Assembly (NCBI GenBank): GCA_016188625.1
Contig: JACPHL010000041.1
Span: forward strand, 1 to 11,999
Direction of reading: 5' to 3'
Length of the DNA stretch: 11,999 nucleotides
DNA from: Candidatus Rokuibacteriota bacterium
Lineage (GTDB): Bacteria > Methylomirabilota > Methylomirabilia > Rokubacteriales > JACPHL01
The translations under genes and the position numbers were made by a program. This document shows, in pieces, positions 3 through 3,579 of this stretch. The notes under the pieces are model-generated. The model saw nothing but the letters and a program-made list of their open reading frames with translations. It was not told the DNA's origin and did no database searches. Every line of letters starts with the position of its first letter. Position 1 is the first letter of the stretch.

Positions 3-179
3 CGGCCCGATCGGAGGTCGGCGACGGAGGAGGACCGGCGCGCAATTGCTTCCTGGCTTGAAGGGCACGGCCATGTTTATGACATCCACATCGGACCCCT
101 GGTGGATGCGTGGCATCCTGCCCCCGTGCGGGCTGTGCGGGCTGGGGGTAGCTTGACCCGTCCTGGAGCGGGGCGCTAG
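3..179 (+). CDS. possible 3' end of an unidentified protein (partial)
   Basis: Frame 3 is open from the left edge to a TAG at 177-179, giving about 58 residues and no family I recognise. It includes a stretch reading roughly WLEGHGHVYDIHIGP that looks protein-like. Third-position GC is mixed and weaker than in the genes downstream, and an open frame of this length is common in GC-rich DNA, so this may be chance. If real, its last codons overlap the promoter proposed for the selenoprotein gene. Confidence 0.3.
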   Translation, partial: RPDRRSATEEDRRAIASWLEGHGHVYDIHIGPLVDAWHPAPVRAVRAGGSLTRPGAGR

Positions 180-189: not shown

Positions 190-801
190 ATGGAGCCGGT
201 GATCGAGGTCATCGAGTACGCCGACTACCTCTGACCCTGGTGCTATCCGGCGGCCGTGCGCCTCCGGAAGCTGAAGCAGGAGCTGGGCGACCGCCTGGTC
301 ATGCGCTGGCGGCCCTTCCCGCTGCGCCCGGTCCCCGACCCCACCGCCACCTTCAAGGGGACCTATCGGGAGGAGGCCTGGCGGCGCTGCCAGGCCCTCG
401 CCGGCGACGCCGGGGTCGAGTTCCGGATGTGGGAGCGCGAGGACTTCCCCACCTGGAGCCTCCCGGCCCTCGAGGCGGCCAAGTGCGCGGCCCTCCAGGG
501 GGAGGAGGCCTTCGAGCGCCTTCACCTGGCGCTCTACGAGGCCTTCTTCACCCGCGGGGTCAACATCGGCCGGCCTGAGAAGGTCCTGGAGGTGGTGCGG
601 GAAGCGGGGCTCGACATGGAGCGGTTCCAGGCCGACTACGAGACGGGGCAGGCCCGGGAGTGGGTCCTCGCCGACTACGAGGAGGCGGTCCGGACCCACG
701 GGGTCCGGGCGATCCCGACCGTTCTCTTCGACGGGAAGCGGATCGTGGGGGCGGTCCCCCTCGAGGAGTACCGCCGGCTCCTGGCGGCCGCGGGGGCTTG
801 A
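190..801 (+). CDS. DsbA/FrnE-family thioredoxin-fold selenoprotein (UGA-encoded Sec in UPWC motif)
   Basis: The protein has 203 residues if the in-frame TGA at 232-234 is read as selenocysteine. The N-terminus reads MEPVIEVIEYADYLUPWCY, matching the beta strand and CPWCY active site of the FrnE/DsbA-like family, with Sec at 15 replacing the first, nucleophilic Cys and Cys at 18 resolving. The rest is a typical helical insert followed by the cis-proline loop AIPTV (Pro 176) and FDGKRIVGAVP near the C-terminus. It probably acts as a thiol-disulfide oxidoreductase or isomerase. No signal peptide is visible, so it is likely cytoplasmic. Reading only to the next GTG (256) would remove the first beta strand and the whole active site. 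A hairpin at 246-268 fits a bacterial SECIS. The next gene starts one base after the stop. The alternative is a nonsense mutation in a Cys form. The intact downstream frame and the hairpin argue against it, but only finding selA, selB, selC and selD in the genome would settle the point. Confidence 0.87.
232..234 (+). other. UGA recoding site (selenocysteine codon 15)
   Basis: This TGA lies in frame between the ATG at 190 and the long open frame that continues to 801. It occupies exactly the position of the first cysteine of CPWC, followed by codons for Pro, Trp, Cys and Tyr. A one-base substitution in TGC or TGT would give the same codon, so conservation in relatives is the decisive test. Confidence 0.85.
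246..268 (+). promoter_or_regulatory. bacterial SECIS-like hairpin
   Basis: The arms TCCGG (246-250) and CCGGA (264-268) pair. After one C/T mismatch (251/263), GGC (252-254) pairs with GCC (260-262), leaving the five-base loop CGTGC (255-259). The loop starts 20 bases after the UGA and carries G at its second position. This meets the known bacterial SECIS pattern: a short stem, a small loop with G in the first two bases, and a distance of about 16-37 bases from the UGA. It would recruit SelB with Sec-tRNA. GC-rich coding DNA forms hairpins easily, so the structure supports the Sec reading but does not prove it. Confidence 0.65.
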
Positions 802-802
802 G

Positions 803-1288
803 ATGGCCGAGCGCGCCTGGCCCGAGATGGCCGAGTACTACTTCCACAAGGCCTACGAGGCCCAGATGGCCGGGAACCTCGACGAGGCCGTCGAGCTGTA
901 CAAGAAGTCGATCGAGATCTACCCGACCGCCGAGGCCCACACCTTCCTCGGGTGGACCTACAGCTTCCAGGGGCGCTACGACGACGCCATCCTGGAGTGC
1001 CATCAGGCCATCGAGGTGGACCCCGACTTCGGGAACCCCTACAACGACATCGGGGCCTACCTGATCGAGTTGCAGCGCTACGAGGAGGCGATCCCCTGGC
1101 TCAAGAAGGCGATGGAGGCCAGGCGCTACGAGCCGCGGCAGTACCCCCACTTCAACCTCTCCCGGGTCTACGTGCGGCTCGGCAAGTTCCGCGAGGCGAT
1201 CGCCGAGATCGAGAAGGCCCTCGAGATCGAGCCCGACTACGTCCTCGCCCGCCGCGAGCTGCACCGGCTCGTGGGGATGCTGAACTGA
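803..1288 (+). CDS. tetratricopeptide repeat protein
   Basis: The product is 161 residues made almost entirely of about four TPR units, near residues 10-43, 44-77, 78-111 and 116-149. Their helix pairs show the usual G-Y/F-A-P spacing, for example NLDEAVELYKKSIEIYP, RYDDAILECHQAIEVDP and KFREAIAEIEKALEIEP. TPR folds form a groove for binding peptides or partner proteins, so this is a scaffold or adaptor without catalytic residues. No signal peptide is seen and it is probably cytoplasmic. The ATG follows the selenoprotein stop by one base, and the last codon and stop overlap the proposed polymerase start. The gene is therefore likely cotranscribed and translationally coupled on both sides. Its partner cannot be inferred. 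Confidence 0.9.
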   Translation: MAERAWPEMAEYYFHKAYEAQMAGNLDEAVELYKKSIEIYPTAEAHTFLGWTYSFQGRYDDAILECHQAIEVDPDFGNPYNDIGAYLIELQRYEEAIPWLKKAMEARRYEPRQYPHFNLSRVYVRLGKFREAIAEIEKALEIEPDYVLARRELHRLVGMLN

Positions 1289-3579
1289 CCCGCGAGACCG
1301 CCCTCCCCTTCCTCGACCACCCCACCCTCTTCGGCCACGACCGCACCCCCGGGCTGATCGCCTTCGAGCTGGAGGGCGGGGAGGGAATCCGGGTCTACCA
1401 CCGCGACGGGGAGCGGCGGGAGAGCCGCCTCGAGCCGTTCACCCCGTTCCTCCTCCTCGCCGACCCGGACCTCCTCAGGGGGTGGAAGGGGGAGGTCGAG
1501 GTCGAGCCGCTCGAGGGGGCGGGGAGCCTCCGCTGGCTGGTCCGGCTCGGGTCGTGGCCGTCCGCCCTGAAGGCCAGGGAGCACTGCCAGCGGCGCTCCG
1601 GGAGACCCCAGAGCGCCCCGGACGCCCCTTACCGCTTCCTCTCCGACCCGGTCCACCAGCACCTCCTCCTGACCGGGAAGACCTCGTTCCGCGGCCTCGA
1701 GTTCCGCGACCTCCGGCGCCTGGCCCTGGACATCGAGGTCTACTGCGGGGAGGGGTTCGAGTTCCCGAACCCCTCGCGCGAGGGGGACCGGATCATCGCC
1801 GTCGCCCTGGCGGAGTCGAGCGGCTGGGAGCGGGTGCTCTCCGGGAAGGAACTGGACGAGCGGGCGATGCTGGAGGAGCTGGGCCGGCTGATCCGGGAGC
1901 GCGACCCCGACGTGATCGAGGGGCACAACCTCTTCCGCTTCGACCTCGAGTACATCGAGGCCCGGGCCCGCCGCCACCGGGTGCCCCTGGCCTGGGGGCG
2001 CGACGGGGGCCCCCTCCGCGGCCACGCCTCCCGGATGCAGGTGGCGGAGCGGACGATCGCCTACCGCCGGTACGAGGTCCACGGCCGCCACCTCCTGGAC
2101 ACCTGGGTCCTGGTCCAGCATTACGACGTCTCGGCGCGCGATCTGGAATCCTACAGCCTCAAGGACGTGGCCCTCCACTTCGGCCTGGCGGACCCGGGCC
2201 GGACCTACATCGACGGCGATCGGATCAGCGCGTGCTGGGACGCCGACTCGGAGCGGGTCCTGGCCTACGCCTTCGATGATGTCCGGGAGACCCGGGCCGT
2301 GGCGGACCTCCTCGCCCGCCCCTACTTCGTCGAGGCGCAGGTCTTCCCCTACCCTTACCAGACCGTGGTCCTCAGGGGGAACGCCACCAAGATCGACGGC
2401 CTCCTCCTGCGGGAGTACCTCCGCCGGCGCCGGGCGATCCCCCTCCCCTCCCCGGCCCGGCCTTTCGCGGGCGGCTACACCGCCATCTTCTGCCAGGGCG
2501 TGGCCCGGAACGTGCTGCACGCCGACGTCACCTCGCTCTACCCCTCCATCATGCTCACCTTCTCGGTCTTCCCGGCGAAGGACGAGCTGGGGGTCTTCCC
2601 CCTCCTCCTCCGCGACCTCCGCGAGTACCGGCTGGCGGCCAAGGCCCTGGCGCGCCGGGCCGAGGAGCCGGAGGCGCGGAGCTACGCCGCCGCGCTCCAG
2701 CAGACCTTCAAGGTCCTCATCAACTCCTTCTACGGCTACCTCGGCTTCCCCATGGGGCACTGGAACGACTACGAGGCGGCCGAGCGGGTGACGGCCACGG
2801 GGCGCGAGCTGATCGGCAAGGTGGTGACCTGGCTCCGGACGCGGGGGGCCGTCGTCGTCGAGATCGACACCGACGGGCTCTACCTGGTCCCGCCGCCCGA
2901 GGTGCGGACGGAGGAGGAGGCCGAGCGCTTCATGGCCGAGGCGGCGGCGATCCTCCCGGAGGGGATCCGGCTCGAGCAGGAGGGGGTCTACCCGGCGATG
3001 TTCAGCTACAAGATGAAGAACTACGCGCTCCTGGACCCGGACGGGAGGCTCGTCATCAAGGGCTCGGGGCTCCGCTCGCGGGGGCTCGAGCGCTTCCAAC
3101 GCGCCTGGATGGAGGAGATGTTCCGCCTGCTCCTCTCCGGTGAGGCCGAGGCGATCCCGGGCCTCGTCCAGCGCTACCTCGACGACTTCGCCCGGCACCG
3201 GCTCGACGTCCGGATGTTCATGAAGACCGAGACCCTCCAGGACTCGCTGGAGACCTACCGCGAGAAGGTCCGGGCCCGGCGCCGGAACCCCGCGGCCCCC
3301 TACGAGCTGGCCCTGGGCTCGGAGCGCCCCTACCAGCCCGGGGACCAGGTCTCCTACTACGTGACCGGGGAGGGGGTGAAGGTAAAGGTCCACGAGGCGG
3401 CCCGGCTGGCGACCCAGTGGGACCCGGCCCGCCCCGACGAGAACGTCGCCTACTACCAGGCCAAGCTCCTGAACCTCTGGGAGAAGTTCCGCCCCCTGGT
3501 CGAGCACGGACGGCTCCTGCCGCTGGAGGAGGGCGAGGCGGAAGAAGACGGCGGTCCCGGAGAGGGCGTGGTAGAATGA
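1285..3579 (+). CDS. family B DNA polymerase with 3'-5' exonuclease (Pol II-like)
   Basis: The product has 764 residues from the proposed CTG start, close to the length of E. coli Pol II. Exonuclease motifs are present: Exo I LALDIE (D149, E151), Exo II HNLFRFD (N215, D220) and Exo III YAFDD (Y328, D332). So are polymerase motif A DVTSLYPSI (D414), motif B KVLINSFYGYLG (K476, N480, YG483-484) and motif C IDTDGLY (D528, D530), followed by YKMKNY and IKGSG motifs typical of the palm and thumb. All catalytic carboxylates are retained. It should be a proofreading, template-dependent polymerase, probably for repair or lesion-related synthesis rather than chromosome replication. No ATG, GTG or TTG lies in frame between about 1000 and the conserved N-terminus. 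CTG at 1285, overlapping the TPR stop as CTGA, with GGGGA about seven bases upstream, is the best start. Motif C has Gly where most members have Ser. Confidence 0.9.
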   Translation: MTRETALPFLDHPTLFGHDRTPGLIAFELEGGEGIRVYHRDGERRESRLEPFTPFLLLADPDLLRGWKGEVEVEPLEGAGSLRWLVRLGSWPSALKAREHCQRRSGRPQSAPDAPYRFLSDPVHQHLLLTGKTSFRGLEFRDLRRLALDIEVYCGEGFEFPNPSREGDRIIAVALAESSGWERVLSGKELDERAMLEELGRLIRERDPDVIEGHNLFRFDLEYIEARARRHRVPLAWGRDGGPLRGHASRMQVAERTIAYRRYEVHGRHLLDTWVLVQHYDVSARDLESYSLKDVALHFGLADPGRTYIDGDRISACWDADSERVLAYAFDDVRETRAVADLLARPYFVEAQVFPYPYQTVVLRGNATKIDGLLLREYLRRRRAIPLPSPARPFAGGYTAIFCQGVARNVLHADVTSLYPSIMLTFSVFPAKDELGVFPLLLRDLREYRLAAKALARRAEEPEARSYAAALQQTFKVLINSFYGYLGFPMGHWNDYEAAERVTATGRELIGKVVTWLRTRGAVVVEIDTDGLYLVPPPEVRTEEEAERFMAEAAAILPEGIRLEQEGVYPAMFSYKMKNYALLDPDGRLVIKGSGLRSRGLERFQRAWMEEMFRLLLSGEAEAIPGLVQRYLDDFARHRLDVRMFMKTETLQDSLETYREKVRARRRNPAAPYELALGSERPYQPGDQVSYYVTGEGVKVKVHEAARLATQWDPARPDENVAYYQAKLLNLWEKFRPLVEHGRLLPLEEGEAEEDGGPGEGVVE

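Follow-up and report, generated by a model that had tools for sequence, protein, structure and literature searches.

The start of the window (the whole stretch of 11,999 nucleotides analyzed here) raises the question of whether a frame interrupted by TGA close to its 5' end is a broken gene or a gene whose UGA is read as selenocysteine (Sec). On sequence grounds we hold with high confidence that 190-801 encodes a selenoprotein, probably a cytosolic DsbA/FrnE-like thiol-disulfide oxidoreductase with Sec as the nucleophile of a UPWC motif. What can be read directly from the DNA is the open frame, a conserved UGA that falls on the catalytic residue, the Sec machinery, the hairpin and the protein family; from these we infer that Sec would be incorporated at codon 15 and play a catalytic role there. 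An earlier note on this DNA had arrived at the same interpretation, which is now supported by the machinery, by homologues with UGA or Cys at this codon, by their open frames, by the hairpin, and by the family and fold of the protein.

When the TGA at 232-234 is taken as U, the product begins MEPVIEVIEYADYLUPWCYPAAVRLRKL, and its 203 codons contain a single internal stop, at codon 15. The nearest in-frame stop 5' of the frame lies at 154, and inspection by eye revealed no clear Shine-Dalgarno motif ahead of the ATG at 190. The coordinates from which the earlier note assembled one full-length frame (ATG at 190, in-frame TGA, open to 801) are thus confirmed, with codon 15 as the sole internal stop, and its placement of the interruption at the catalytic Cys agrees with the alignment, in which the TGA coincides with the nucleophilic Cys of CPWC in DsbA/FrnE-like homologues. 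The GTG at 256, named there as the start that an ordinary gene caller would choose, does open a 181-aa ORF in the ORF-finder listing. In any genome with this gene, annotation would yield a truncated protein that lacks its active site, and DsbA-like selenoproteins of the known type are usually mis-annotated as truncated. Coordinates of the features are collected in the table.

Table. Features of the selenoprotein locus, in window coordinates.
Feature	Position (strand)	Detail	Basis
Predicted selenoprotein CDS, DsbA/FrnE-like, 203 aa	190..801 (+)	ATG 190-192, stop TGA 799-801	Read-through translation, PF01323 match, same-frame homologues in about 60 loci
UGA codon 15, putative Sec of the U-P-W-C active-site motif	232..234 (+)		Aligned with TGA of relatives and TGC/TGT of Cys homologues
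TGC, putative resolving Cys18 of UPWC	241..243 (+)		Invariant across 39-sequence alignment
Predicted bacterial SECIS hairpin	246..268 (+)	Apical loop CGUGC	Folding, bSECIS constraints
IPTV segment	712..723 (+)	Contains invariant P176 (715-717)	39-sequence alignment
TPR protein	803..1288 (+)	Directly downstream; neighbour in some relatives too	Pfam, synteny
Family-B DNA polymerase	1300..3579 (+)		Pfam PF00136/PF03104, synteny

We searched 95 genomes of Rokubacteria/Methylomirabilota, accepting homologues at E 1e-20 or better, and found one in 60 of them; a scan of public bacterial genomes yielded 64 relatives. The comparison at codon 15 that the earlier note had called for returned UGA or Cys: in the public scan every Cys homologue has TGC or TGT there, and a single relative at 48% identity, from a MAG labelled Deltaproteobacteria (L002), has TGA. 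With genes clipped by contig ends left out, each close-clade homologue contains exactly one TGA, at codon 15, and the frame downstream of it stays open, free of the decay that the note had named as contrary evidence. The same TGA recurs in roughly 60 genes, the most distant at 32% identity, with conserved open frames downstream, and its presence at one alignment position in so many homologous genes of the phylum is, judging from the alignment, far beyond chance. In a quick maximum-likelihood tree from which the Sec/Cys residue had been removed, the clade of the window gene comprises Sec-encoding genes in all 44 unclipped rows (support 99), and the tree as a whole, in which many deep branches are poorly supported, requires approximately six changes between Sec and Cys. 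This extends the FrnE-like enzymes by a clade spread across a phylum of uncultured bacteria; all of its members seen here are of the Sec form.

The Sec genes that the earlier note had listed for checking, selA, selB, selC and selD, were all found in the window's own genome, the assembly of which is fragmented and 84% complete. There selA scored 600 bits, selB 381 bits and a tRNA-Sec with anticodon TCA 75.7 bits, the three being clustered within 5 kb of contig 273; selD (396 bits; locus L079, contig 179:1347-2267) contains a single in-frame TGA and itself probably encodes a selenoprotein. Across the phylum, 83 of the 95 genomes have a selA that scores above the cut-off. Among the 12 others, selB or tRNA-Sec was detected in six, and a selD with an in-frame TGA was present in all eight that were searched for it. 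Since selA, selB and tRNA-Sec are co-located in the window genome, a single missing contig could account for their joint absence elsewhere. TGA also serves as the stop codon of 8 of the 11 other window genes checked, so that UGA is not reassigned globally, and the selenoprotein gene too ends in TGA.

These observations bear directly on other ways of explaining the interruption. A nonsense mutation in a pseudogene, or a Cys codon misread in sequencing, could be suspected in an assembly of this quality, and one relative, G078, carries a decayed remnant at the corresponding place; that remnant, unlike the window gene, is itself without the active site, and the identical, deeply conserved TGA with its open frames downstream already refutes this reading, which we consider extremely unlikely. 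Similarly, a code in which UGA stands for tryptophan or glycine throughout the organism would leave the frame intact, as the frame is open whichever residue UGA encodes, but the probability of such a code is close to nil: it is already refuted by the TGA stops of the neighbouring genes, and is further opposed by the TGA that ends the selenoprotein gene, by homologues with Cys, not Trp or Gly, at codon 15, and by the TCA anticodon of the tRNA-Sec.

It is also conceivable that translation mostly terminates at the UGA and that the useful product is a short protein made by re-initiation at GTG 256, from which the frame is open. This product would be without the first strand and the active site, and the codons flanking the UGA are conserved as protein in about 60 genes, whereas a non-coding leader would need no such conservation, and we regard this possibility as very improbable.

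In the selenoprotein reading, tRNA-Sec with SelB would decode the UGA at 232-234, guided by a hairpin at approximately 246-268. The SECIS-like element for which the earlier note had advised a search is indeed predicted just 3' of the UGA, where it occupies positions 15-37 (counting the UGA as 1-3), has the GU of its loop at 25-26, and folds with an energy of -11.1 kcal/mol (247-267) or -13.8 kcal/mol (244-270). The bSECIS model, as quoted in PMC13188914, describes an apical loop of 3-9 nt with a G among the first two positions, a spacing of 16-37 nt, an energy of at most -7.5 kcal/mol and an upper stem of 4-16 bp. The present loop starts at UGA+24, giving a spacing of 20 nt, has G in second position and at -11.1 kcal/mol lies within these ranges, as does the stem length only when a one-by-one C.U mismatch is allowed inside the upper stem. 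Rfam gave no match within the window, a result that is uninformative because bacterial SECIS elements vary widely.

Constraint on RNA was set apart from constraint on protein by comparing the UGA+16..36 segment of each gene with synonymous recodings that preserve the peptide. All 63 TGA genes, which are related and hence not independent tests, were more stable than the mean of their own recodings (mean z -1.61, 81% below -1), compared with a mean z of -0.18 for 47 Cys homologues, and no gap of similar size separated the Sec from the Cys group in segments farther downstream. G occurs within the first two loop positions in 61 of 63 TGA genes versus 27 of 47 Cys homologues. The hairpin register varies by sequence group, as seen in GCCGAGGUUCGGC from the L141 group versus CCGGCGGCGGUCCGCCUCCGG from the main group, with GU in both loops. 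Covariation scored on a single register is weak (70% of cells pair, with few changes on both sides) because other sequence groups use a shifted register. Moreover, the Cys genes of a mixed group, L129-L138, keep a similar hairpin, so that in this group the hairpin alone cannot separate Sec from Cys.

When Cys is substituted for U, residues 7-198 match PF01323 (DSBA) at 90.6 bits, against a curated cut-off of 25.6; among NCBIfam models, none reaches its cut-off on the protein. Eight columns are invariant in the alignment of 39 sequences (D12, Y13, L14, U/C15, P16, W17, C18 and P176), the last of which, by analogy with the thioredoxin fold, is expected to be the cis-proline facing the active site. 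The AlphaFold model (pLDDT 95.7, pTM 0.91) positions residue 15 in the turn preceding the first long helix (H18-35), which is the nucleophile's place in thioredoxin folds, and its structural matches at TM 0.74-0.80 include S. coelicolor SCO1869 (3gl5), D. radiodurans FrnE (5cnw and others), YjbH and an N. europaea protein, the TM values for FrnE and related DsbA-type structures being 0.76-0.80. The DsbA/FrnE-like thioredoxin-fold identity advanced in the earlier note is therefore supported by both the PF01323 match and the predicted fold. A cytosolic location is likely because the stretch ahead of residue 15 is too short to accommodate a signal peptide. As the enzyme exchanges with a substrate disulfide, a selenenylsulfide between Sec15 and Cys18 would likely form and be reduced.

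To our knowledge, the FrnE of Deinococcus radiodurans uses no selenocysteine. HCCA isomerase and kappa-class glutathione transferase share the overall fold and have Ser and glutathione at the site, whereas the UPWC redox motif belongs to the window protein. The likeness to FrnE (5cnw, 5xwh) consists of a shared DsbA-type fold (TM 0.76-0.79) and weak sequence similarity (22-24% identity, phmmer E 5e-5), and FrnE is the longer protein, with 228-245 modelled residues versus 203 aa here. A weak match over the C-terminal half to the Rcas_1661 family thioredoxin-like (seleno)lipoprotein, NF041057, was rejected as a sign of membership at 57.9 bits versus an equivalog cut-off of 190.

DsbA-like UxxC selenoproteins (COG2761/PF01323) have been on record from the Sargasso Sea since 2005 (PMC1088965), appeared again in the GOS metagenomes (PMC2398784), and are listed in reviews of 2022 (PMC9312934) and 2026 (PMC13188914), in agreement with the earlier note, which had placed such oxidoreductases among bacterial selenoproteins. 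Form 1 from the Sargasso Sea/GOS data shares with the present gene the domain family, the UxxC motif, Sec at the nucleophilic position and a SECIS-like hairpin after the UGA; going by its description, the present gene differs in its origin from Rokubacteria/Methylomirabilota, in forming an all-Sec clade there, and in its link to a DNA polymerase gene. The suggestion that this version might be new in its lineage holds in part: the phylum-wide clade is an addition, but the type goes back to 2005 in the literature, and one genome of Methylomirabilota is reported to have 63 predicted selenoproteins (Deng et al. 2026, Cell Rep, as cited in PMC13188914). Judged by its sequence, the gene is a well-supported further example of the DsbA-like selenoprotein type already described.

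The least expected part of the finding is the adjacency to the polymerase. In the window the selenoprotein gene is followed by the TPR gene, the family-B DNA polymerase gene and a LOG-family (lysine-decarboxylase-like) gene. The polymerase gene comes next on the same strand, with or without TPR between, in 31 of the 34 close-clade loci within the order (190-3579, L082-L126), and the adjacency is kept among relatives whose proteins are roughly 50-70% identical. In the remaining three loci, LOG comes next in one, TPR and then LOG in another, and the third is cut short; among the 10 clade members outside the order, polymerase adjacency was observed in none. This pattern suggests a shared operon and says nothing firm about function. 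It is a speculative and rather unlikely proposal, built on gene order, that the Sec oxidoreductase cooperates with the adjacent polymerase, for example by keeping the polymerase or a repair complex reduced; if true, DNA synthesis or repair would be tied to redox state in a selenium-dependent way.

The remnant in G078 (L147, about 2016-2288) precedes the polymerase gene, with its active-site segment deleted and its frame ending early. It might be taken as a sign of Sec loss, but a TGA-containing selD remains in G078, so that the missing selA, selB and tRNA-Sec of this genome may reflect an assembly gap.

More distant paralogues are found in the same order. The mixed group L129-L138 comprises five Sec and five Cys genes, some within one genus, and offers natural Sec/Cys exchange pairs for asking what Sec gains over Cys. 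Separately, loci L139-L151 from the same phylum hold further, divergent paralogues of DsbA-like type whose corresponding codon is likewise TGA, in the motifs DLLUPYCY, FDYLUPWCF and HDVLUCWC.
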